From assembly GCF_003664325.1 (NCBI RefSeq), contig NZ_RCDA01000004.1, positions 124,001 to 188,000 of the forward strand: a stretch of DNA of 64,000 nucleotides. The letters are read 5' to 3'. The notes beneath the pieces were generated by a model that saw nothing but the letters and a program-made list of their open reading frames with translations, searched no databases and was not told the origin of the DNA. Below, one piece after another: positions 2,874 through 58,605 of this stretch. Position numbers and translations under genes: made by a program. The DNA comes from Alkalispirillum mobile (GTDB lineage: Bacteria > Pseudomonadota > Gammaproteobacteria > Nitrococcales > Halorhodospiraceae). How positions within the stretch are numbered: the stretch's first letter is position 1; each line of letters starts with the position of its first letter.

Positions 2874-4202
2874 TCAGCGGGCCAATTCCTGTTTGATGAT
2901 GTACTGACGCAGCTCTTCGATTACATGGTGGTCACGCACGCCCAGCAATCCCTCGCGGACCTGGTCCTGGCCGGGGTGGTCCTCGCTGTGCAGGAACTGC
3001 CAGGTGATCTGGCCCGGGTGGAACACCGTCAGCTCCGTCCACTCAAGCTCAGCGTCCGCCAGGTCACCGTCCACCCGGACGGCGGTGATGTCGACGTCCT
3101 CATCGTCGACGCCCAGGCCAAGGGTCTGGGGCAGGGAGACCAAGTGCCAGCGGGCGCCGAAGCCACCGGTGTGCACGGCAAAGGCCACGTTGTAGAGGCC
3201 GCCGTCCTCCAGGGTCTTGCTGTCCATAGCGTCCGGTGCGTCCAGGGAACGGGTCAGGGTGACGCGCCAGGCACCGTCCTCGTAGCCGCCTTCCGCGCGG
3301 ATGGCGCCCCGGCTGCCGCTAGGCTCCTGCAGGAAGCGCTGCGGGATGACATCGCCTTCCTGCCAGTCGTGGTCCGGGTCGAAGGGCACCGAGTTGTGCT
3401 CGGAGATGAAGTAGGGGTCGTCCTGGCTGTACTCGCCGTCCACCAGCTCGTCCCAGTCCAAGGCCACCCGACCGGTTTCATCCGGGTCAAACATGTAGGC
3501 GGGGTGGTTGCCATCGTCATCCCAGTTGGTGGTGAACATGCTGTCGCCCTCGGAGGAGAGGCGGTAGTGCAGCACGTAGCCGTTGTCGGCATAGCCCATG
3601 GGGTGGCTGCGGTGCGCGCGCCACTGCCAGAGATCCAGGAAGACACCATCCTCCTGCAGTTGGGCAAGCTCGTCGTCGTCACGGACGGCGTCCCAGGAGA
3701 CGTCAGTCGGGTCGTCCACGTCGCGGGTCTGCGGCAGGTACTTGCGCACGTCGCTGCGGCCTAGGTCATCGCCCAGTGTCGGGTGCGCCTCCACCTCGCT
3801 GCTCTCGGCCTCGGAGGTCAGGCTGCGCATACCGTCGTGGGCAGTCATCCAGCCGCCGTAGCGGTCGAAGCCGTCAACCGCGCCGTCGTCCAGCAGCATT
3901 GAGATCCGGTCCTCGTACAGCCCATGGGGATCGGGCTTGGGGCCGCCGGAGCCGTAGCGCACCCATTCGCCGTCCTCGTAGCGCCAATACTGGTGGTACC
4001 AGCTGGGGTTGTCGGTCTCGAAGACGTAATGGATCTGGATCTCGTCGCCGTTGTAGGCCGCCGCCACTTGCAGTGTCCCGTGGCTGTTCGGGTAGTCGGG
4101 CACGTAGATGTTGCGCTCCACGTCGACCCGGATATTGTCGGCGGCAACCAGGCCGGGGGCGGCCAGCAATGGGATGAAAAGGTTCAGCGTTCGTTTCCGC
4201 AT
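2874..4202 (-). CDS. Secreted ethylbenzene-dehydrogenase-type haem-binding protein
   Basis: 442 residues with a Sec signal peptide (MRKRTLNLFIPLLAAPGLVAA, cleaved near residue 21). The mature part resembles the EB_dh / DMSO-reductase-family gamma-subunit haem-b-binding fold: an early NPSWYHQYWRYEDGEW segment, DLWQWRAHRSHPMGYADN in the middle and a late GGFGARWHLVSLP segment. In ethylbenzene, dimethylsulfide and selenate dehydrogenases such a subunit passes electrons from a molybdenum subunit to cytochromes. Here no molybdenum or Fe-S subunit is nearby, so it may be an independent periplasmic b-type electron carrier. It is highly acidic, as expected in a halophile. Domain assignment is by eye. 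Confidence 0.72.
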   Translation of the reverse strand: MRKRTLNLFIPLLAAPGLVAADNIRVDVERNIYVPDYPNSHGTLQVAAAYNGDEIQIHYVFETDNPSWYHQYWRYEDGEWVRYGSGGPKPDPHGLYEDRISMLLDDGAVDGFDRYGGWMTAHDGMRSLTSEAESSEVEAHPTLGDDLGRSDVRKYLPQTRDVDDPTDVSWDAVRDDDELAQLQEDGVFLDLWQWRAHRSHPMGYADNGYVLHYRLSSEGDSMFTTNWDDDGNHPAYMFDPDETGRVALDWDELVDGEYSQDDPYFISEHNSVPFDPDHDWQEGDVIPQRFLQEPSGSRGAIRAEGGYEDGAWRVTLTRSLDAPDAMDSKTLEDGGLYNVAFAVHTGGFGARWHLVSLPQTLGLGVDDEDVDITAVRVDGDLADAELEWTELTVFHPGQITWQFLHSEDHPGQDQVREGLLGVRDHHVIEELRQYIIKQELAR

Positions 4203-4315
4203 TGGTGGGCTCCTCGGGGCTGGTGTGTTTGCGGTCTTTTGAAGGTCTTGATTTTACAAGATGGCACTCAAGGGTTAGCGGTGCAATGCAAGGGCGTTCA
4301 GGCCGGGTCCGGGCC

Positions 4316-4344
4316 TTGACAGCAGGCGGGTGGCGGGCGAGAAT
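4316..4344 (+). promoter_or_regulatory. Sigma-70 promoter of tRNA-Met
   Basis: A perfect -35 TTGACA (4316-4321) is followed, after 17 bases, by GAGAAT (4339-4344) as -10. Transcription would start about 7 bases before the tRNA, with a GC-rich stretch after the -10 as in stringently controlled stable-RNA promoters. Confidence 0.55.
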
Positions 4345-4357
4345 TCGCCGCTCGAGT

Positions 4358-4434
4358 GGCTACGTAGCTCAGCTGGTCAGAGCATCGCACTCATAATGCG
4401 AGGGTCGGTGGTTCGAGTCCACCCGTAGCCACCA
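4358..4434 (+). tRNA. tRNA-Met (CAT), elongator
   Basis: 77 bases including an encoded CCA. Acceptor arms GGCTACG and CGTAGCC pair fully; the anticodon loop is CTCATAA and the T arm is GGTTCGAGTCC. The body is close to the E. coli elongator methionine tRNA (same acceptor stem and start GGCTACGTAGCTCAG). It lacks the C1-A72 mismatch of an initiator, so it should read internal AUG codons. Confidence 0.97.
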
Positions 4435-4633
4435 TTATTTTCAAGTAGTTACCCTCCTGTCACTCCGCCTGTATCGCCTGCGACAAGTCTGCTGTACCCC
4501 CCCTACGCAGTTACGTTGGGATGCCAGGACAATGGCGAGCATTCTGCAGCCGGGCAGTCGCCCAGGTGCTACCCGCTATACTCTGATCTGTTGACGGAGC
4601 CCACACACCGGTTACTGCCCCGGGGGGTTGCCT

Positions 4634-5008
4634 ATGGATCAGGACAGCCAGAAGCACGCCATCGATTCCCTCCGGGACTGGAGCAAGTGGCTTATCGGAG
4701 TGGATTTCGCCGCCGCGACCGGTTGCGTGATCGTGTTGCAGGGCGGCGATCCAGCAGGTATTGCGCGGTTGCTGCTGGTGCTGGCCATCAGTTCCTTCGC
4801 GTTATCGGTGCTCTGCGCCATCGTTCTAACCCGGGTGCTGGCTTCCGTGGTTGAGCGCCTGCCGCTGACCGGGGCCGATGGACGGCCCGTGAGCATTGCC
4901 GCCTACCGGCTGAGCGGTGGGCTGATTACGGTAGGTGGGCTCGCATCGGCGCAGATTGTCCTGATGGCGCTGGGAGGCGGGTTGCTGATCGGCTGGATTG
5001 TCGTTTAG
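4634..5008 (+). CDS. Small three-helix membrane protein, unknown
   Basis: 124 residues from the ATG at 4634, preceded by a G-rich Shine-Dalgarno-like stretch. After a short charged N-terminus (MDQDSQKHAIDSLRDWSKW) there are three hydrophobic segments at about 19-37, 46-71 and 97-124, giving a small integral inner-membrane protein. I do not recognise a family, and no neighbour suggests a role: it follows tRNA-Met and converges on an ABC exporter. Confidence 0.7.
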   Translation: MDQDSQKHAIDSLRDWSKWLIGVDFAAATGCVIVLQGGDPAGIARLLLVLAISSFALSVLCAIVLTRVLASVVERLPLTGADGRPVSIAAYRLSGGLITVGGLASAQIVLMALGGGLLIGWIVV

Positions 5009-7094: not shown

Positions 7095-7763
7095 ATGACT
7101 TACCGATTCAGTGACCTGGTCACGGCCTGTGAAGGGGACTGGCGCACTTACATCGAGCACGAGTTCGTGCGCGCCCTCGGAGAGGGCGCGCTTGAGGAGG
7201 AGGCCTTCCGCCACTACCTGAAGCAGGACTACCTGTTCCTGATCCATTTCGCCCGTGCCTATGCGCTCGCGGCCTACAAGAGCCGCACCCTCGAAGATCT
7301 GCGGCAGGCCCACGAAGGCCTCAAGGCCATCGTCGACCTGGAGATGGGCCTGCACGTGGATTACTGCCGCGAATGGGGCATCTCCGAAGAGGACCTGGCC
7401 GCGCTGCCCGAGGCCCGCGCCACCATGGCCTATACCCGGTACGTGCTGGATACGGGTAACCGCGGCGACCTGCTGGACCTGCACGTGGCCCTGGCTCCCT
7501 GCCTGGTGGGCTACGGTGAGATCGCGAACTGGCTGAATGGACGCCCGGAGACCGTCCGGGGCAAAGGCAACCCCTACGACGCCTGGATCGCCATGTACGA
7601 GAGCGACGAGTTCCAGGCCGCCATGCGTGCCGAGCGGGACTGGCTGGACGCCCGCCTGGCGGATGTTACCCCCGCCCGCTTTGCCGAACTGACCCAGGTG
7701 TTTCGAGACGCCACGCGCCTGGAGATCGACTTCTGGCAGATGGGGCTGGACCGCGCCGACTGA
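7095..7763 (+). CDS. tenA: TenA/PqqC-type aminopyrimidine aminohydrolase (thiaminase II)
   Basis: 222 residues. The ATG at 7095 is chosen over the GTG just before it because GGAGG ends at 7090. The all-helical TenA pattern is clear: FRHYLKQDYLFLIHFARAYALA near residue 38, the catalytic-type cysteine in APCLVGYGEIANWL near 136, and the C-terminal glutamate in LEIDFWQMGL. TenA hydrolyses amino-HMP-type breakdown products of thiamine so the pyrimidine can be salvaged in the cytoplasm. No other thiamine gene is adjacent, consistent with a salvage role. It is divergent from the ABC exporter. Confidence 0.88.
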   Translation: MTYRFSDLVTACEGDWRTYIEHEFVRALGEGALEEEAFRHYLKQDYLFLIHFARAYALAAYKSRTLEDLRQAHEGLKAIVDLEMGLHVDYCREWGISEEDLAALPEARATMAYTRYVLDTGNRGDLLDLHVALAPCLVGYGEIANWLNGRPETVRGKGNPYDAWIAMYESDEFQAAMRAERDWLDARLADVTPARFAELTQVFRDATRLEIDFWQMGLDRAD

Positions 7764-7881
7764 GCGGTCGCCCCAGGGGGCTCGCCTTGCCCGGGGACAC
7801 AAGATCCATCAGGATGCAGTGATCTATTCTGCGGGCAACGGTTCCCGTCGCGAATTTATGGATGATCCAGTGAGGTGAGAG

Positions 7882-8424
7882 ATGTTGAACCTGCGTAACG
7901 CGCTGTCCGTGACCGTGGTTTCCGTCGCTATGGCCGGGGGTGTGGCCCAAGCCGATATGGTGCGGGACCTCTCCCCGGGTATCGCCGTGATGGGTGGCGT
8001 GATCGATCCGGAGCTCTCCGGTGCCAGCTCGGACTGGGGTTACGGTGTGGAGGCGTCCGCCGACTGCCTGCTGCTGCAGCCCGCACAGGGTGTGCTGCGG
8101 CATCAGCTGAGCATCACCCGCTACGACGACCGCCCCCTGCGCATGACCTCCACCGAGTTGAACACTCACTGGATGTTCGAGGTGGCGCCCCGCCTGGAGA
8201 TCGGCGCCGGCCCCGGCATCAGCTACATGCGTGCGCGGCTCGGCGGTGAGACCAATGGGCTCTGGGGCGCCCAGGTGGGTGGCAGCATGAACTACACCCT
8301 GGACAACAACGTGTTCATGGGCGTGGAAGCCCGTTACCAGTTCACCGAGAGCGAACGCTTCCACGGTGTCAGCGAGGATATGGACAACTACCGGGTGATG
8401 GGCAAGGTCGGCATCCGCATGTGA
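7882..8424 (+). CDS. Small outer-membrane beta-barrel protein
   Basis: 180 residues with a Sec signal (MLNLRNALSVTVVSVAMAGGVAQA, cut near 24) and alternating strands such as GAGPGISYMRARLG and NVFMGVEARYQFTE, ending in YRVMGKVGIRM. This fits an eight-stranded OmpA/OmpW-size barrel. The start has GAGG six bases ahead of the ATG. The specific function is unknown; sequence divergence is normal for such barrels. Confidence 0.72.
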   Translation: MLNLRNALSVTVVSVAMAGGVAQADMVRDLSPGIAVMGGVIDPELSGASSDWGYGVEASADCLLLQPAQGVLRHQLSITRYDDRPLRMTSTELNTHWMFEVAPRLEIGAGPGISYMRARLGGETNGLWGAQVGGSMNYTLDNNVFMGVEARYQFTESERFHGVSEDMDNYRVMGKVGIRM

Positions 8425-48260: not shown

Positions 48261-48695
48261 TGAATGTCCCGTGGCCGTGTGAAGTCTGTGACTGGTTTGA
48301 TGCCATGGATTATACATGATGGCACCGGCCGGGCATTCGGCTGCCGAAGGTTTTCCCTTATTGTTCCGTTTGGGGTTTTGTGGAAAAGGTTTCTCTTTTT
48401 TCTTTTGGTTGGCCTGCGTTGTTTTTTTGTCGTGTATGCGTTTTGCGAGATTTTAGTTGATTCAGCCACTTGCAGTGGGTGGTGCACTTAATTGCGAGAT
48501 TCTTTTCACACTGCAATAAAAAAGCGTGATCCGCCGCTCATCTCCCTCCTTCGTTTTCGCGAACCTTTTACTAGAATCCAGAACAGTACACATGAAGCTT
48601 GTGACTCGATCCTAACGCCTGTGTTCCATAATTGGAGCAAACGCGTGGTCGTCCGGTGCTTCTCGTTTGTTGGGGTAATTGATTGGGTGAGGAGA
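48261..48695. other. AT-rich divergent regulatory region
   Basis: 435 bases between the epimerase start and the VpsR-like regulator start. It is much richer in A and T than its surroundings, with runs such as TTTCTCTTTTTTCTTTTGG near 48391-48409 and CAATAAAAAAGCG near 48512. The regulator frame is open through most of it but the translated residues resemble no family. It probably holds promoters for both genes and possibly binding sites. I see no tRNA or confident small gene. Confidence 0.5.
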
Positions 48696-50153
<1,458 letters not shown>

Positions 50154-50196
50154 GCGCAGCGCATTGCCCCGGGGGTACGGGGCTTGGAGAAATACC

Positions 50197-51243
50197 GTGG
50201 AGAACCGCGCTTTAAAGCAGTGGCTGTATTGTCTGTGCCCGATCGTGCTGGGCGTGCCCATGGTGGCCCTGGCCCAGGAGTCTCGTCCGGAGGTGGGCGA
50301 GGCCCCTGAGGGCGGGGAGCCGGAGGTGGCGGTCTTTGAGCAGCGCGGCCTGCTCACCCCGCAAGGGCGATGGGTGTTGGAGCCCTCGCTCTCCTACGTG
50401 CACAGCAGTGCGCTGGAGGTTTCCATCGAGGGGTTCACCATCATTCCGGCGCTGGCCATCGGGCTCATCGATGTCAGTGAGACCGAGCGCGACACGCTCA
50501 CCGCCGCCGTGGCGGCCCGTTATGGTGTCACCGACCGGTTCGAGGTGGCGTTGAAGGTGCCCTATGTCTACCGCGAGCAGCGGGTGCGCCGCCGGGATAT
50601 ATTGGTGGACACCGAGATGGCCCGGATCTCCGGGTCCGACGGTTACGGGTTGGGCGACGTGGAATTCAGCATGCACTACCAGATCAATACCGCCGACCGC
50701 GGGGGCCCCTTCTACATCGCCAACCTGAAGGTGAAGACACGGACCGGGAAGGATCCGTTCGAGGTGGACCGCCGCGACGTTGTTGACGAGGACGGCAACC
50801 GAATCGGTGAACTATTCGATGAACAGCCCACCGGCTCGGGGTTCTGGGGGGTACAGCCCAGCATCACCATGATCTACCCCACCGACCCCGCCGTGATCTA
50901 CGGCAACATCAGCTACCTGTGGAACGTGGAGCGGGATGTGGGCTCCGGCTTCGGCCGGGTGGACCCGGGTGACGCCATCGGTGCCAGCCTGGGTATGGGC
51001 ATCAGCCTGAATAACCGCACGTCGATGAGCCTCGGCTATGATCACAGCGTGGTGCAGCGCACCCGAACAGAGCGGGACAGCGGCCTGGACGCGGTCTTCA
51101 GCCGGCGCCAGGTGGGCACGCTGCTGTGGGGGGTTTCGCACCGGGTCAGCCAGCGAAGCACCCTCAACCTGTCGGTCGGCATGGGAGTGACCGAGGCGGC
51201 GCCCGATGTGCAGATCTCGCTGCGGATGCCGATGCGGTTCTGA
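50197..51243 (+). CDS. Outer-membrane transporter/porin of the amyloid-like locus
   Basis: 348 residues from the GTG at 50197 (GGAG eight bases ahead). Signal peptide to about 27 (...PMVALA), an acidic linker, then alternating beta strands (RWVLEPSLSYVHSS, DVEFSMHYQINT, SAVIYGNISYLW-like, TLNLSVGMGV) ending LRMPMRF with terminal Phe, so an outer-membrane barrel of about 12-16 strands. It resembles MetA-pathway/phenol-degradation-type transporters. Position next to a C39 peptidase and amyloid-like proteins suggests the export pore (the role of FapF in Pseudomonas), although it lacks an obvious FapF coiled-coil domain. Confidence 0.8.
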   Translation: MENRALKQWLYCLCPIVLGVPMVALAQESRPEVGEAPEGGEPEVAVFEQRGLLTPQGRWVLEPSLSYVHSSALEVSIEGFTIIPALAIGLIDVSETERDTLTAAVAARYGVTDRFEVALKVPYVYREQRVRRRDILVDTEMARISGSDGYGLGDVEFSMHYQINTADRGGPFYIANLKVKTRTGKDPFEVDRRDVVDEDGNRIGELFDEQPTGSGFWGVQPSITMIYPTDPAVIYGNISYLWNVERDVGSGFGRVDPGDAIGASLGMGISLNNRTSMSLGYDHSVVQRTRTERDSGLDAVFSRRQVGTLLWGVSHRVSQRSTLNLSVGMGVTEAAPDVQISLRMPMRF

Positions 51244-51252
51244 GGGGGCGGG

Positions 51253-51750
51253 TCAGTGGCTGATACTGCCCTCGATCAATTGGCGCTCCAGCGAGCGGGC
51301 CAGATCGCTCCGGGGCATCTCCACGTTATTGAGCTCCAACTGCATGATGGTGGTGTGCTGGATCTGCTGGCCGTCCAGCTCGTTCTGGATGGCCGTGACC
51401 CAGCCGATGGTCTGATCACTTAGCTGCCGGACGGTGGTGCCATCGTTGCCGGTGTTGATCACCACCTGCCGCAGCGCATCGGCGGGCACGTTGCCACCAC
51501 GGCCCAGCGGGGCCAGTTCCCGTAGCACCGTGCGGTGCACCTCCTCCCCGTTGATCGCGGTGGCCTGCTCCAGGCCGATGGCGATCTCCATCCCGTTCCG
51601 TCCGAAAAAACCACCGCGCTGTTCGGCCAGCACTTCATCCGGTACCACCCGGGTATCGTCCGGGCCGGGTAGCGGTTGCAGGGCCAAGGCGGCGCCCGCG
51701 GGGGCCAGAATGAGCAGTGTCAGTAGGCAGGGCGTCAGAATGGCGCGCAT
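51253..51750 (-). CDS. Secreted 165-residue protein of the amyloid-like operon
   Basis: Signal peptide (MRAILTPCLLTLLILAPAGAALA, cut near 23), then a conserved-looking segment DEVLAEQRGGFFGRNGMEIAIGL. A late region WVTAIQNELDGQQIQHTTIMQLELNN mirrors the IQN-plus-beta-strand ending of the 128-residue protein upstream. There is an AGGAG Shine-Dalgarno sequence. It is the last gene of the operon, 28 bases after the C39 peptidase. The LAEQRGG stretch partly resembles a double-glycine leader. Position suggests a FapA- or FapE-like accessory or minor fibre subunit, but I cannot assign it to a named family. Confidence 0.75.
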   Translation of the reverse strand: MRAILTPCLLTLLILAPAGAALALQPLPGPDDTRVVPDEVLAEQRGGFFGRNGMEIAIGLEQATAINGEEVHRTVLRELAPLGRGGNVPADALRQVVINTGNDGTTVRQLSDQTIGWVTAIQNELDGQQIQHTTIMQLELNNVEMPRSDLARSLERQLIEGSISH

Positions 51751-51778: not shown

Positions 51779-52486
51779 TCACCATTCGCCGGCCCGGGGC
51801 AGGTGCAGCATCAGGTTGGCGATGCTTTGCCTCGCCAGGCCGGACTCCAGCGGGGCTCGGGTGACCGCCTGCCAGGTCTTCCCCACATTGAAGCTCGCTT
51901 GGGCCCGGTCCAGTTCGTCCCGGATGATGAACAGGATGTTGTTGACCTGGACCTCTTCAAATTCCCGAAGGGTGTAGCTCTGCACGCCCAGGGCCGGGTC
52001 GCCCACCAGTACCTGGTTTTCGTGAATGCCCTTGATCACCACGAAGTGCCGGTAGCCCTCGGTCTCTATCATCGTAATGGCGGGTACGCCGAGTTCCTCC
52101 AGGTCATTGAGGCCCAGACGGAAACCGTCGCTGGACAGCCCCACTTCGCCCTCCAGGTATCGCTTCATGTCGAGCATGGAGAAGCCTTGGGTCTGGATCA
52201 GCGCCTGGTCGCCGGTGCGATACATGCCGTCGAACGTCGCTGTCTCCGGGGTGGGGCGGCCGTAATGGTAGGTCAGCAGTGTCGCCAGGGCGGCCGAGCC
52301 ACAGCTGAAGTCGTACTGTTGAGGGACCACGGAACGGAAACGCAATGTTTTCAGACTGTCCACCTGGACTTCCATGGTCCCGAGGGTGCCGGGGATCACG
52401 GCGCCGCCAGCGGATGCAGCTGGTGGCAGGGCCGGCAGCAGGGCCAGTGCGAGGCCCCATGAGAGGACAGTGCGCTTGTGGATCAT
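51779..52486 (-). CDS. Periplasmic C39-family cysteine peptidase (FapD-like)
   Basis: 235 residues with a Sec signal peptide (to about 26, ...PPAASA). The C39 triad is visible: Cys62 in QQYDFSCGSAALATLLTYHYG, His147 in GYRHFVVIKGI, and Asp163 in GDPALGVQSY. Unlike bacteriocin C39 peptidases it is not fused to an ABC transporter, so it should act in the periplasm, as FapD of the Pseudomonas functional-amyloid system does. Its neighbours encode secreted proteins with a shared motif, which may be its substrates or partners. It starts after only 11 bases from the preceding stop. Confidence 0.88.
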   Translation of the reverse strand: MIHKRTVLSWGLALALLPALPPAASAGGAVIPGTLGTMEVQVDSLKTLRFRSVVPQQYDFSCGSAALATLLTYHYGRPTPETATFDGMYRTGDQALIQTQGFSMLDMKRYLEGEVGLSSDGFRLGLNDLEELGVPAITMIETEGYRHFVVIKGIHENQVLVGDPALGVQSYTLREFEEVQVNNILFIIRDELDRAQASFNVGKTWQAVTRAPLESGLARQSIANLMLHLPRAGEW

Positions 52487-52497
52487 AACGATTGCCC

Positions 52498-52884
52498 TCA
52501 GGGGTTAACCGATATGTTGATCACCATGGATTCCTGAATGGCCACGTTGTGGCCGCTGTTCTGTATGACGCTGAAAACGCCGCTGGCATCGCCGAATGCC
52601 CCCGCGCCGATGATGTTCTGGCCGCTGTGCCCCCCGATGACCTGGTTATCCCGCAACTCGATGGTCGAAAGGGCCTGGCCGAGCTGGAGGTTGGTGACAC
52701 CCTGACGCGCCCGTTGCTCACCGAGTGTGTCGGTATTCACCGCGGTGGCCAATGTGTCGGGTGACAGGTGGCTCTGGTTGGCCTCGGGGTCGAGGGCATG
52801 GGTGGCGCCGGCCGCGCTCAGCAATGCCAGGGTGATGAGGGGGACACCTAACCGGCCGTAAAGCCTGGGGATTAAAGTAGGCAT
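52498..52884 (-). CDS. Secreted 128-residue amyloid-motif protein
   Basis: 128 residues taking the ATG at 52884 (GGAG nine bases ahead; another ATG six bases upstream is possible). Signal peptide to about 30 (...SAAGATHA). The middle holds DTLGEQRARQG. The end carries NIIGAGAFGDASGVFSVIQN followed by SGHNVAIQ and beta-strand residues, which closely matches the C-terminus of the repeat protein encoded next door. By analogy with FapB/FapC it may be a fibre nucleator or minor subunit. Not a named family that I can confirm. Confidence 0.77.
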   Translation of the reverse strand: MPTLIPRLYGRLGVPLITLALLSAAGATHALDPEANQSHLSPDTLATAVNTDTLGEQRARQGVTNLQLGQALSTIELRDNQVIGGHSGQNIIGAGAFGDASGVFSVIQNSGHNVAIQESMVINISVNP

Positions 52885-52975
52885 GACCATTCACTCCGGA
52901 AGTCAGCAGGACATCTGAACGGATGGCGGGCCCGTGGGCCCGCCATCCGCCTGTTATGCCGGACGTGGCTTCAGG

Positions 52976-54190
52976 TTAGTTGCCACCCACCTCCAGGTGA
53001 GCCTGTACCGAGACCTGCTGTTGGTTCAGCGAGTTGGCCCCAGAGTTCTGGGACAGCACCGTGATGCCGGCTGCACCGTTGAAGGACTCGCTGCCGATGA
53101 TGTTGTCGGCGTTGTAGCGCAGTTCGCCCTCACCACCGCCAAAGGTCACGCTGTTTCCGGTGACCTGGCCGGAGAGCTCGTTTTGAGTGACCACCGCGTT
53201 GACCTCCAGCGTGGTGTTGAAGCTGTCGGTCGCGTTGCCAGAGTCAGCGGTGTTGACGCTGTTGTCGGAGTTGTCGTTGTAGGAATCAGCGATGCTGTTA
53301 TCGGAGTTATCGCTGTTGTCCGAATGATCACTGTTGTCGGAGTTGTCGTTGAAGGAGTCGGCGACACTGTTGTCCGAGTTGTCGCTGTTGTCCGAATTGT
53401 CGTTGCCCGAGTCAGCGATGTTAGTGCTGTTGTCGGAGCTGTCGTTGCCCGAGTCAGCGATGTTAGTGCTGTTGTCGGAGCTGTCGTTGCCCGAGTCGGC
53501 AACATTGGTGCTGTTGTCCGAGTTGTCGTTACCCGAGTCGGCGACGTGGGTGTTGCCGCTGTCGTTGATGCTGTTGTCGGAGTTGTCGTTGCCCGAGTCG
53601 GCGATGCTGGTGCTGTTATCGGAGCTGTCGTTACCCGAGTCAGCGACGTTGGTGCTGTTGTCGGAGTTGTCGTTACCCGAGTCGGTGAGGCTGTTATCGG
53701 AATTGTCGTTCTGTGAATCCGTCAGGCTGTTGTCGGAGTTATCATTGCCCGAGTCAGCCACGTTAGTGCTGTTATCGGAGCTGTCATTGCCCGAGTCGGC
53801 GACGTTGGTGCTGTTGTCCGAGCTGTCGTTACCCGAGTCGGCGACGTTGGTGCTGTTATCGGAGCTGTCGTTGCCCGAGTCAGCGATATTGGTGCTGTTA
53901 TCGGAACTGTCATTGCCCGAGTCAGCCACGTTAGTGCTGTTGTCGGAACTGTCGTTCTGTGAGTCGCTCACGCTGTTGTCGGAGCTGTTGTTATTGGAGT
54001 CGCTGTTGACCGTGGCGGTGGAGTACTCGTTGGCGGAAGCACCCCCATCGCCTGCCGAGGATGTAGCCGTTGCGGTTTGATCACCCGCCTCGCCCTCGGA
54101 GGTGTTGGTCGGGTTGGCCATGGCCACCGAGGAGGCGAACCCGAAGGTCAGTGCCACTGCGGTCGCGATCAGAGTCTTCTCGAATTTCAT
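52976..54190 (-). CDS. Asp/Ser/Asn-repeat secreted amyloid-like surface protein
   Basis: 404 residues from the ATG at 54190 (GGAG eight bases ahead). Signal peptide to about 26 (...SSVAMA). Residues ~64-310 hold about seventeen copies of the decamer DSxNDxSDNS, mostly spaced as 14-residue units by TNVA or TNIA. The last ~90 residues are non-repetitive: LSGQVTGNSV, GGGEGELRYN, then NIIGSESFNGAAGITVLSQN and a QQQVSVQAHLEV strand. The repeat is extremely acidic and polar, suited to salt or calcium binding; the C-terminal motif resembles Fap amyloid repeats. It is the first and probably most expressed gene of the operon, behind a sigma-54-type promoter. Confidence 0.85.
   Translation of the reverse strand: MKFEKTLIATAVALTFGFASSVAMANPTNTSEGEAGDQTATATSSAGDGGASANEYSTATVNSDSNNNSSDNSVSDSQNDSSDNSTNVADSGNDSSDNSTNIADSGNDSSDNSTNVADSGNDSSDNSTNVADSGNDSSDNSTNVADSGNDNSDNSLTDSQNDNSDNSLTDSGNDNSDNSTNVADSGNDSSDNSTSIADSGNDNSDNSINDSGNTHVADSGNDNSDNSTNVADSGNDSSDNSTNIADSGNDSSDNSTNIADSGNDNSDNSDNSDNSVADSFNDNSDNSDHSDNSDNSDNSIADSYNDNSDNSVNTADSGNATDSFNTTLEVNAVVTQNELSGQVTGNSVTFGGGEGELRYNADNIIGSESFNGAAGITVLSQNSGANSLNQQQVSVQAHLEVGGN
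53235..54000 (-). repeat. In-frame 42-base tandem repeats
   Basis: Imperfect tandem DNA repeats inside the repeat-protein gene, most units 42 bases (14 codons) long, with shorter 36-base units and irregular SDN-rich stretches near the 3' end. Synonymous differences between units show they are old enough to have diverged, yet the frame is kept throughout. Copy number could vary between strains by slippage or recombination. Confidence 0.9.
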
Positions 54191-54280
54191 CGTCAAATCT
54201 CCATCGGTTGACTGCTACATGCGTCTTGGTTCGTGGCGCAAGTGGCTTGTGTGGGCCCCCGAGCCACGCAGACCGTGGAA

Positions 54281-54478: not shown

Positions 54479-55453
54479 CTAAAGGATTCTGAGACCCCTG
54501 AGCCGGTCCTCCTGGCTTTGCTCTTCACTGCCCTCGGACTTGCCGTCCTGGATGGCCTGGGATTCCATCACACGTCGGCGCTCCTCCTCGGACAGGGTGA
54601 CGCCCAAGAGTTCGAGTACCGCGGCGTCGTCATCACTGATCAGAGTGTCGCGATTCCAGAGCGGGACGTTGCCCCGCCGGAGCAATTGGGGAACAAAGTC
54701 GGTGGTTACAACCACATGCCGGCGCAACTGCCGGAATATGACATCCACCAGGTGCGTCAGGCGCAGAAGTCTGTCGCGGTGCAGGGATTGTTGCTTGTCA
54801 GTGGGGTCAAGGTGGCGGTTGTACCCCATCAGGATGGACACGCTGGGCTTGCCATCCGCCTGGGTGAGGTAGCGCCCCAGGGCGTGGGCATCAAGGTCGC
54901 AGGGGAGCCCGCTATCATCGAACAGGCGCAAAGGTACCCGGCTGACCTCGGCGCTTTGGACCAGTAGATCCATGAACGCCTGGACCGTCCGTCTTTTTTC
55001 CGACCCGAGGGGGCCTAGTGGCACTCGCGCGCCCTGGGTCAATCGCCCTTTCGGCGGCGGCGTGAACGACTGTTGCTCACGGTAGTACCGCACCGTGACC
55101 AGTTCGAGACTGAGGAGCAGGCGGCCGTAAAACTCCAGTTCCATGTTGTCGCCCACGGGCGGGGCGTCGGCGAAGCGGCCCTCATGCTGGTGGATCTTGC
55201 GCCCGGCGATGATCAACTGCTGCTGGCGTTCGGGGGCGAGGGGCTCGTGGCAGAGCTTGTGTGCCAGCCGGTAGATGGGGTCCCGTTCGATAGGGTGGGG
55301 CAACTGTGACCAGAAAGCGTAAGCGCCATCCCGTATGGCGTACTCGGATTCCGCCCACAGCGTGAGGGCCAGCGCGCGTGCGCTGAACGCGGCCTGCTCA
55401 CGGCGGCCGGGCAGAACCTGGGCCGGTTCTGCGCCGGGTGGGTTGGGGGACAT
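54479..55453 (-). CDS. Cytoplasmic 324-residue protein, unknown
   Basis: 324 residues from the ATG at 55453 (AGGAG ahead). No signal or membrane segment. It is rich in Leu, Arg and Glu and predicted mostly helical, for example REQAAFSARALALTLWAESE near 18 and LLRLTHLVDVIFRQLRRHVV near 230. It ends in a charged low-complexity tail. I do not recognise a domain. It lies upstream of the repeat-protein operon on the same strand, separated by a 288-base regulatory gap, and is divergent from the cold-shock gene, so it may or may not belong to the locus. Confidence 0.72.
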   Translation of the reverse strand: MSPNPPGAEPAQVLPGRREQAAFSARALALTLWAESEYAIRDGAYAFWSQLPHPIERDPIYRLAHKLCHEPLAPERQQQLIIAGRKIHQHEGRFADAPPVGDNMELEFYGRLLLSLELVTVRYYREQQSFTPPPKGRLTQGARVPLGPLGSEKRRTVQAFMDLLVQSAEVSRVPLRLFDDSGLPCDLDAHALGRYLTQADGKPSVSILMGYNRHLDPTDKQQSLHRDRLLRLTHLVDVIFRQLRRHVVVTTDFVPQLLRRGNVPLWNRDTLISDDDAAVLELLGVTLSEEERRRVMESQAIQDGKSEGSEEQSQEDRLRGLRIL

Positions 55454-55526
55454 GGCGGGTGCTCTCCTGATATTACCCAATGCCACTTATGGTAATGGCG
55501 CCGGCCCGACCAAGCAAAAAAAGTGT

Positions 55527-55961: not shown

Positions 55962-58484
55962 TTAATCTGAAAGTCGGGGCGCTCCCGCGCTGCCACGGAG
56001 ATAGGCCGCAGCAAAATCTTCACCGGCGGCCGGCCGACCTGTCTTGAAACCCTGTACCAGCGGCACTCCGTACTGCTGCAGGGCACTCAGTTGAGCGTCA
56101 GTCTCCACCCCCTCAGCAACCACCTTCAGCTCCAGCTCCCGTGCCAGGCCGCTCACGGCGGCCACGATGGCGCAGCCTCCCTTGCGACAGGTGCCGAGAT
56201 CGGAGACGAAACTTCGGTCGATCTTGAGCGTGGTGACCGGCAGTTGCTGCAGGTAGGTGAGCGACGAGTAGCCGGTGCCGAAGTCATCAATGGCGACCTT
56301 GCACCCCAGGTCGCGCAGGCGTTGCAGGGTGCTGATGCCCCGGTCGGTGTCGTGCATCAGCGTGCTCTCGGTCAGCTCAAAGCTCATAAGCCGCGGGTCC
56401 AGCTCGCACCCTTTCAGCATGGCCTTCAGGTCGTTGAGCAGGTCACCTTGCCAGAACTGCCGCGCCGAGAGGTTGATCGCCACCGGCACGGGGTCCAGCC
56501 CCGCCTGCTGCCACGCCTTCAGCTGGGTACAGACCATGCGCATCACCGCCCGCCCCAGCGGGATGATCAGGCCGGACCGTTCCGCCAGGGGTATGAACTC
56601 ACCCGGCGACACCGGGCCGCGCTCCGGGTGGGTCCAGCGTAGCAGCGCTTCTGCGGAATGCAGCGCACCGCTCTCACGGTCGAAAATCGGCTGGTAATGG
56701 ACGCTCAGGCCGTTGCCGGTCTCTGCCGTGTCGCGCAGTGCCGTCTCCAGGGCCAGCTGGCTGCGCACCCGGGTGTCCATCTCGGGGGCGTAAAGCCGAT
56801 AGGTGTTGCGACCCTCCTCTTTGGCCCGGTACATCGCCGCATCCGCGGCCCGGATCAGCTCGTCGGCATTCCCGCCGTCGTCCGGGTAAAAGCTCAGGCC
56901 CACGCTGCAGCCCACGCGGAAGTCGTGGCTATCGATGACGTAGGGCTGGCTGATGGCCCCGATGAGGCGCTGTGTCGCCCGGGTGGCTTCGTCCACCTCG
57001 TGGAGGTCCGGCAGCAGGGCGATGAATTCGTCTCCACCCAGTCGCGCCAGGGTGTCGTCCTCGCGCAGGTTGTCGCGCAGACGCTCAGCAACACTGAGTA
57101 GCAGTTCGTCGCCCACGGCGTGGCCCAGGGTGTCGTTGACCTGCTTGAAGTGGTCCAGGTCGATGAACAGTACCGCGAGGCGCTGGCGGTGCCGGTGGGC
57201 GTGGCGCACGGCCAGTGACAAGCGATCGTCCAGCAGCCGTCGGTTGGGCAGCCGGGTGAGCGGGTCGTAGTAGGCCAGCTGGCGGACCTGCCGCTCGTTC
57301 TCCCGGATGTGGGTGATGTCGGTGAACAGCCCGGCGTAATTGGTGGTCTTGCTCTCGTCGTCGGTGATGGCGGTGATGGTCAGCAGTTCCAGGTACAGTT
57401 CGCCGCCCTTGCGCCGGTTCCAGATCTCGCCGCGCCAGTAGCCCTGCTCCTGCAGGGTTGTCCACATTTCCTGGTAGAAAGTCGGTGGGTGCCGTCCTGA
57501 GGAAAGAACGGCCGGCGTGCGCCCGGCCACCTCCTCCAGGGTGTAGCCCGTGAGGTGGGTGAAGGCCGGGTTCACGAACTCGATGCGGGCCTGGTCATCG
57601 GTGATGATGATGCCCTCCAGCGAGGAATCGATGACCCGCTCCGCCAGTTGCAGGTGCTGGCGTGATTGGGCCAGCGCCTGGTCGCGCTGTTCCAGGGCGC
57701 GGCGCAGATCCTTTAGGTAGACCTGCTCTGTCCCGGCCAGCATGTCGCGAAAGCCGAGTAGCCCGGTGACCCGCCCCTCGTCGTCCAGCACCGCCAGGTG
57801 CCGGACCTTGTGGTCCATTAGCAGATCACGGGCATGGATCAGCATGTCGTCCACGGACACGGTCAGGAGCGGGCGACTGGCCAGGGTGCCGATCGGGGTG
57901 TCACCCGGGTGGTTCGCGATGAAGCGCACCAGGTCCCGCTCGGTTACGATGCCCAGGTCACCCTCGGCGAAGCGGATCACGGCGGCATCGCGCTCCATTT
58001 CGCGCATCCTTCGGGCCACGGCAGAGAGCAGCACATCCGCCTCCAGCACCAGTGGGGTGCTGCGCATGGCCGCGCCCACTTCGCGCAGCCGCAGGTAGGC
58101 CTCCATTCCCTGGTTCAGGGCCACGTCGGTCTGTGAGAGCACACCCTCGGGATTGCCCCGGGCATCGATGACCAGGAAATGGCGCCGATTCTCACTGCGA
58201 AAGCGCATGGCGGCCTCACCCAGCTCGGTACCAGCATGGATGCAGGCCACTGGGCTGCTCATGACCTCGCGAATGGCCACCCGGGTGGCCGAGTGATCGG
58301 AGAAGTCCACCGCCAGTGCGTCCCGCTCTGTCCAGATCCCCACCGGCTCGCCGTCGCGCATGATCAGGATGGAGCTGCACTGCCGCTCCGCCATGCGGGC
58401 GGCCGCCTCGCACAGCGGGGTGTCCGGTGTGCAGTGGAGTATGGCCGGCTGGACGATGCGTTCTACGGGTAGTCGGTGGCTCAT
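55962..58484 (-). CDS. CBS-CBS-PAS-GGDEF-EAL cyclic-di-GMP protein
   Basis: 840 residues from the ATG at 58484; no membrane segment, so cytoplasmic. Two CBS pairs lie at ~8-135 and ~140-265 (IMRDGEPVGIWTERDAL, LGIVTERDLVRFI), then a short coiled coil, PAS ~295-410, GGDEF with RLGGDEF near 483, and EAL with SAEALLRW near 610 and DDFGTGYSSLTYLQQLP near 735. Both active sites look intact. CBS pairs bind adenine nucleotides, so this may tie c-di-GMP to energy state. It faces a stand-alone CBS protein gene across 121 bases. Confidence 0.93.
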   Translation of the reverse strand: MSHRLPVERIVQPAILHCTPDTPLCEAAARMAERQCSSILIMRDGEPVGIWTERDALAVDFSDHSATRVAIREVMSSPVACIHAGTELGEAAMRFRSENRRHFLVIDARGNPEGVLSQTDVALNQGMEAYLRLREVGAAMRSTPLVLEADVLLSAVARRMREMERDAAVIRFAEGDLGIVTERDLVRFIANHPGDTPIGTLASRPLLTVSVDDMLIHARDLLMDHKVRHLAVLDDEGRVTGLLGFRDMLAGTEQVYLKDLRRALEQRDQALAQSRQHLQLAERVIDSSLEGIIITDDQARIEFVNPAFTHLTGYTLEEVAGRTPAVLSSGRHPPTFYQEMWTTLQEQGYWRGEIWNRRKGGELYLELLTITAITDDESKTTNYAGLFTDITHIRENERQVRQLAYYDPLTRLPNRRLLDDRLSLAVRHAHRHRQRLAVLFIDLDHFKQVNDTLGHAVGDELLLSVAERLRDNLREDDTLARLGGDEFIALLPDLHEVDEATRATQRLIGAISQPYVIDSHDFRVGCSVGLSFYPDDGGNADELIRAADAAMYRAKEEGRNTYRLYAPEMDTRVRSQLALETALRDTAETGNGLSVHYQPIFDRESGALHSAEALLRWTHPERGPVSPGEFIPLAERSGLIIPLGRAVMRMVCTQLKAWQQAGLDPVPVAINLSARQFWQGDLLNDLKAMLKGCELDPRLMSFELTESTLMHDTDRGISTLQRLRDLGCKVAIDDFGTGYSSLTYLQQLPVTTLKIDRSFVSDLGTCRKGGCAIVAAVSGLARELELKVVAEGVETDAQLSALQQYGVPLVQGFKTGRPAAGEDFAAAYLRGSAGAPRLSD

Positions 58485-58605
58485 GTGATGGCGGTTCCCG
58501 CTGGGGGTGTCAGGTGTCGTGGGGTTGAGAGCGACATGCAAAGTGCCGGGCTTTCCGGCACCATGAGGGCCTCATGATAAGCCCGAATCGAGGAGGGGTA
58601 TACAC

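Follow-up and report, generated by a model that had tools for sequence, protein, structure and literature searches.

The Fap system, known from Pseudomonas and further Proteobacteria, is an amyloid-fibre system encoded in the order fapABCDEF (PMC3792158, PMC5557850, PMC12392863). Its subunits FapB and FapC carry three imperfect repeats of about 38 amino acids, and the canonical fibres contain FapE as well as FapB and FapC (PMC5557850). The catalytic cysteine of the protease FapD is required for secretion, the C38A variant being inactive, and FapE has been seen by mass spectrometry without its N-terminal peptides (PMC5557850). The substrate and cut site of FapD were undetermined in the 2017 and 2018 papers, whose authors did not recognise a canonical C39 sequence and came to no decision on the FapD target (PMC5557850, PMC6173800). 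FapF was proposed as an alternative target (PMC5557850), and a 2025 review states that FapD is “thought” to process both FapE and FapF (PMC12822426). For C39 processing by ABC transporters, substrates of PCAT1 share the consensus L(-12)xxxE(-8)L(-7)xxxxG(-2)G(-1), with a helix from -10 to -4 (PMC6959990). Colocalised fapD and fapF homologues are also noted in five further phyla in the main text of PMC6173800, which names no subunits for them.

Here we describe a locus in a 64,000-nucleotide stretch of Alkalispirillum mobile DNA (the window) that possesses the same protease and pore pair outside a complete fap operon, and for which three tailed subunits and a leader are identified. Four genes lie on the minus strand in the order repeat protein, small protein, C39 peptidase and 165-aa protein, while the genes for a regulator and a beta-barrel lie on the plus strand, convergent to them; no fapA was seen at the locus. 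By inspection, every protein of the locus except the regulator begins with a Sec-type signal peptide. The repeat protein (406 aa; 52976..54196, minus strand) is an open reading frame, with an ATG giving MKFEKT at 54190, that holds a FapC-like position, which in related loci is occupied by homologues. Its signal peptide is followed by an N/D/S-rich low-complexity spacer, encoded by 36-42-bp tandem repeats found with TRF (53258..54004, minus), and by a C-terminal conserved domain that carries one amyloid-type repeat and consists of an “LSGQVTGN” strand and the tail NIIGSESFNGAAGITVLSQNSGANSLNQQQVSVQ (52979..53209, minus). Among relatives the spacer varies and is either N/D/S-rich or Gly-rich. 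The small tailed subunit (130 aa, or 128 aa counted from the second ATG; 52498..52890, minus) was defined by its reading frame and by profile matches near C39 genes, and consists of a signal peptide, a leader and one repeat unit ending in the tail NIIGAGAFGDASGVFSVIQNSGHNVAIQESMVINISVNP (52501..52617, minus). Downstream are the FapD-like C39 peptidase, predicted to be periplasmic (51779..52486, minus; Pfam PF03412, E = 3.8e-17), and the FapE-like subunit of 165 aa (51253..51750, minus), which has a signal peptide, a double-glycine-type leader, a beta-rich body, a hairpin tail and a C-terminal helix. The hairpin tail surrounds VTAIQNELDGQQIQ (51328..51405, minus) and was delimited with AlphaFold2, which predicts strands at residues 116-125 and 128-141, and with tail profiles. 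The convergent genes encode a FapF-like outer-membrane beta-barrel, a putative export pore (50164..51243, plus; Pfam PF13557, 1.8e-8), and a sigma54-dependent regulator with a VpsR domain (48492..50153, plus; Pfam PF00158 and PF20161).

The repeat, small and 165-aa proteins themselves have no meaningful Pfam or NCBIfam match. Ahead of the operon, matches to a sigma54 -12/-24 site were no more frequent than in shuffled sequences, and none was convincing. Just upstream of the repeat gene lies a 335-aa reading frame (54479..55486, minus) with no Pfam hit above cut-off and no NCBIfam match, and the translation of a large gene further along (55962..58541, minus) reads as a CBS-PAS-GGDEF-EAL protein. 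Together with the VpsR-domain regulator, this last neighbour suggests control by c-di-GMP.

The protease and the pore place the locus near Fap. In the C39 peptidase, residues C62, H147 and D163 are invariant in an alignment of six relatives. It matches the NCBIfam FapD model at 2.7e-41 and 141 bits, below the curated cut-off of 330, which is not decisive by itself, for canonical operons collected here also fall below it. The barrel matches the NCBIfam FapF model at 5.2e-45 and 154 bits (cut-off 700), and our own FapF HMM at 2.7e-55. For the 165-aa family the resemblance to FapE is more distant. An HMM of canonical FapE matches window-type proteins at 1.1e-5 and weaker (2.8e-5 in locus L144), and in the reverse direction the window-type profile matches the canonical FapE of L159. 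The NCBIfam FapE model matches three of 32 relatives, at 0.0016 or worse, and does not match the window protein. The system shares with Fap a FapD-like periplasmic C39 protease, a FapF-like barrel, a FapE-like subunit bearing the same leader, subunits built on a related repeat, and a nearby regulator of the VpsR/sigma54 type, which also lies beside the canonical fap operons L123, L125 and L132. However, each window subunit has one repeat, whereas at least three were counted in all 24 canonical FapB/FapC proteins found; the order is repeat-small-C39-FapE-like with a mostly convergent barrel gene; and the 130-aa subunit with leader and tail has no clear canonical counterpart. Because of the single repeat, the operon order and the curated scores below cut-off, the locus was not filed as Fap proper. 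In the C39 tree canonical FapD forms one clade (98/97 support) with the window-type proteins outside it, and on these data it is the repeat number and the tree, rather than the cut-offs, that set the locus apart.

Two other systems were compared. The Fil system, a “putative pilus system” in NCBIfam, has a protease and a barrel homologous to those of the window, but the scores lie far below the curated cut-offs (C39 against FilB, 135 bits, cut-off 475; barrel against FilC, 56 bits, cut-off 630). By score the barrel is far nearer to FapF (154 bits), and the Fil models do not match the window subunits. Curli (Csg) has a similar Q/N-rich beta repeat with a QxGxxN-like pattern, but the pore and protease here are of Fap type and not CsgG. 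Membership of curli was rejected, as the scanned proteins gave no Pfam curlin match and one weak NCBIfam CsgB match.

A C39 alignment, for which at least 581 matching stretches exist, yielded 80 named genome loci, and with same-family relatives the total comes to 86. By class, the 80 comprise 49 gamma-, 10 alpha- and 10 betaproteobacteria, two Acidithiobacillia, two Thermodesulfobacteriota and seven without an assigned class, and the genes stand in a conserved order in Proteobacteria of alpha, beta, gamma and delta type. Among the 86 loci, HMM matches were obtained for the tail in 50, the small protein in 62 and the 165-aa protein in 74; a FapF homologue is present in 81, mostly convergent as in the window, and at least 63 have the VpsR/sigma54 regulator. 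The small-protein profile lies just upstream of the C39 gene in at least 56, these gene-order counts being lower bounds because the HMM threshold misses diverged small proteins of Halomonadaceae and because upstream and downstream were interchanged in the counting for loci on the minus strand. Conversely, a C39 gene accompanies all 19 FapE-like loci examined. Loci L127 and L135 belong to one genome (G023) that has both a canonical fap operon and a window-type system, and in two Halomonadaceae loci (L024, 4335-12661; L060, 4403-12685) the window-type locus lies directly upstream of canonical fapB and fapC. The separate C39 clade and this coexistence point to a sister-type system and not to a decayed fap operon.

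What the C39 protease cuts is suggested by a motif that the initial annotation did not contain. Besides their tails, the small and 165-aa proteins have a second motif in common, L-x-x-x-R-G/A-x near the N-terminus, and such a leader-type motif sits shortly after the Sec signal peptide in both proteins and in every canonical FapE examined. In the 165-aa protein it reads LAEQRGG (L41 to G47; 51610..51630, minus), with the predicted cut after G47, and in the small protein LGEQRAR (L56 to R62; 52705..52725, minus; located by 52 aligned homologues). The pattern [LM]xxxRG[GRK] was found in 70 of 74 FapE-like proteins against 2.9 expected by shuffling. Since the full-length HMM used to collect this set has the leader as part of it, the conservation is genuine but the count does not amount to independent sampling. 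The pattern is also present in 27 of 60 small proteins and 12 of 12 canonical FapE proteins, and absent from 33 repeat proteins and 86 C39 proteins; in a larger set, all 15 canonical FapE proteins carry [LM]xxxRG[RK]. The register can be followed residue by residue. In the aligned 165-aa family a hydrophobic residue at -12, L at -7 and GG at -2/-1 occur in 32 of 32 sequences and E at -8 in 20 of 32, and the FapE-like leader agrees with the PCAT1-type C39 substrate consensus in the same register. An AlphaFold2 model of the 165-aa protein, of moderate quality (pLDDT 70.9) and without a significant PDB match in Foldseek, places a helix at residues 38-45 (-10 to -3). The small-protein family agrees with the consensus at -12, -7 and -2 only (hydrophobic, L and G/A, respectively, each in 52 of 52 aligned sequences), and the window protein has R-A-R, not G-G, at its predicted cut site. 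Canonical FapE has G[RK] where the 165-aa protein has GG, and its “ELTDGELSGMRGRF...YFG” is matched by “VPDEVLAEQRGGFF...AIG” in the 165-aa family. The resemblance to PCAT/ABC processing (PMC6959990) extends to the C39 fold, the -12, -7 and -2 positions and a short helix, but no ABC transporter is involved here, the substrates are Sec-exported, the protease is predicted to be periplasmic and the leader stands behind a signal peptide. These leaders of the 165-aa and 130-aa proteins suggest what the neighbouring C39 protease cuts in Fap systems, and the leader in FapE is a candidate FapD cleavage site at a specific residue position, a proposal new here.

It could also be that L-x-x-x-R-G-G is the structural start of the folded body in FapE-like proteins, and that the C39 protease cuts FapF or serves only as a chaperone. 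The conserved residues directly after the motif could belong to a fold, FapF has already been put forward as a FapD target (PMC5557850), and the motif does stand between the coiled coil and the barrel in eight of 82 FapF homologues. That count is near the 4.3 expected by shuffling, and the leader was rejected as a general FapF feature. We consider this explanation unlikely, given the position-wise agreement with the C39 leader consensus at -12, -7 and -2 together with the predicted helix, and a motif common to two otherwise different subunit types and missing from the repeat and C39 proteins; the unseen N-terminus of FapE and the secretion defect of C38A FapD (PMC5557850) argue in the same direction.

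Two further occurrences of leader-like motifs were recorded. FapF homologues with LxxxRG[GRK] between coiled coil and barrel are found in L137 (2712-3905), L142 (2687-3946), L075, L078, L084 and L088, and these look as if the C39 protease could release their coiled coil as well. In addition, small secreted proteins that share the conserved motif “VILWDE” are encoded in L123 (8749-9168), L024 (10589-11119), L060 (10545-11045), L138 (6380-6772) and L137 (3969-4316), and those of canonical operons have an LxxVRG leader-like motif ahead of “VILWDE”.

The other shared element is the C-terminal tail, which the initial annotation had placed in the repeat and 128-residue proteins and, more weakly, in the 165-residue protein, whose gene lies outside the 52498-54190 interval then given. 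All three tails were confirmed in the places named. Tail profiles were built from about 60-80 related loci and compared by hhalign against column-shuffled decoys. The small and repeat tails score 34.4 against decoys of 9.3 ± 2.2 (maximum 18.8), and the small and 165-aa tails 39.9 against 8.0 ± 1.6 (maximum 11.8). Compared directly, the repeat and 165-aa tails reach 18.6 (decoys 7.3 ± 2.0, maximum 14.2), in keeping with the weaker resemblance that had been described. On these comparisons the tails of the repeat, small and, more weakly, 165-aa proteins are homologous. The motif of 20 residues first described is real, but the unit common to the repeat and small proteins is longer, about 65-70 aa, and includes the preceding “LSGTVTGN” strand. 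An HMM of the repeat-protein tail matches the adjoining small proteins (E 3e-4 to 8e-3). When 369 whole gammaproteobacterial genomes were scanned in six frames, the small-protein profile matched 15 of them. In 14 the best match lies immediately upstream of a FapD-like C39 gene that had been found independently with the FapD model, and in several of these genomes the weaker matches fall on the tail of the neighbouring repeat protein.

Profile comparison makes a Fap-type amyloid repeat, present once each in the window repeat and small proteins, the best interpretation of the tail. The link runs through multi-repeat relatives. In Acidithiobacillus (L079 and L082) and in genomes L138 and L139 the protein at the repeat position is made of four to five tandem tails, and a profile of these multi-tail proteins matches the window-type repeat tail and the small tail (z = 18 for each) as well as the imperfect repeats of canonical FapB/FapC, taken from 12 canonical fap operons collected in this analysis (96.9% probability, z = 17). 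The NCBIfam FapB model also matches the L079 multi-tail protein at 7.1e-13. In direct comparison the canonical repeats score 22.4 with the small tails, above all decoys (9.0 ± 1.9, maximum 15.0), and 18.1 with the repeat-protein tails, not above the decoy maximum of 18.8. A canonical Fap-repeat HMM finds none of the window proteins at E < 1. Against the Fap-repeat profile the 165-aa tail scores 5.7, which is no match, and with its resemblance to the small tail and not to the canonical repeat it is best read as a diverged version of the Fap-type repeat. A PDB sequence search with two tandem tails gave no match, although the FapC structure 9U4U is published, and the AlphaFold2 model of the Acidithiobacillus multi-tail protein has a pLDDT of 28. 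In L138 a single operon is flanked by two copies of the four-tail protein (3758-4663 and 7158-8144).

A tail of this kind might instead act mainly as a signal for secretion or a chaperone, recognised by the FapF-like pore. The subunits would then be exported as individual adhesins or matrix proteins and would not come together in an amyloid fibre. The window repeat protein, with its single C-terminal tail behind a long, passenger-like low-complexity part, fits such a role, and most loci have only one tail. We regard it nevertheless as rather improbable, as tails that make up most of the protein in L079, L138 and L139 look more structural than signal-like and the tail is homologous to the FapB/FapC amyloid repeats. 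That the tails are alike only through convergent N/G/Q-rich beta composition, the doubt raised at the outset, is very improbable even for short stretches of N/G/S-rich proteins, for the main real pairs score 34-53, whereas decoys with unchanged column composition and conservation reach about 9. Chance and composition are thereby rejected as explanations of the similarity, and the small-protein profile is specific for C39 loci genome-wide.

We favour, with a probability of roughly 0.7, a Fap-like functional-amyloid system with C39-processed subunits and a mixed fibre, whose leader would equally be the FapD site in FapE. Three Sec-exported subunits, each with a single amyloid-type repeat or a hairpin related to it at the end, would reach the periplasm, where the C39 protease would recognise and remove the double-glycine-type leader of the 130-aa and 165-aa proteins and thereby license export or assembly. 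The subunits would then leave through the FapF-like barrel and stack tail-on-tail in one extracellular fibre, its outside decorated by the low-complexity stretch of the repeat protein; the 406-aa protein would likely be the main or most decorated subunit. By homology, FapD would cut canonical FapE at the same leader. Fibre formation, co-assembly, the export route, cleavage and its order are all inferred here from sequence. The initial annotation had offered co-assembly into one fibre or a shared chaperone/export signal. Co-assembly appears the better of the two, given the homology of the tail to the FapB/FapC repeat and the presence of FapB, FapC and FapE together in Fap fibres (PMC5557850). 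With Sec signal peptides on all three proteins and a FapF-type pore adjoining, the common unit may likewise be the part that FapF exports. Beyond the window, we lean towards a widespread amyloid system, related to Fap but distinct from it. Its C39 protease, periplasmic and stand-alone, would process Sec-exported subunits at a double-glycine-type leader that follows the signal peptide, and FapD would cut FapE at this same leader.

Set beside canonical operons, this diverged locus reveals a single conserved leader whose register is exactly that of C39-transporter substrates, and which gives a single-residue prediction for the FapD cut site left open in the 2017 and 2018 papers. In several proteobacterial classes, subunit genes can now be assigned to fapD- and fapF-type loci that had no recognised Fap subunits, and the one-repeat proteins offer natural minimal subunits for amyloid work. 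As far as sequence comparison tells, the system is a relative of Pseudomonas Fap that has been little described, and the tail is one of its conserved building blocks.
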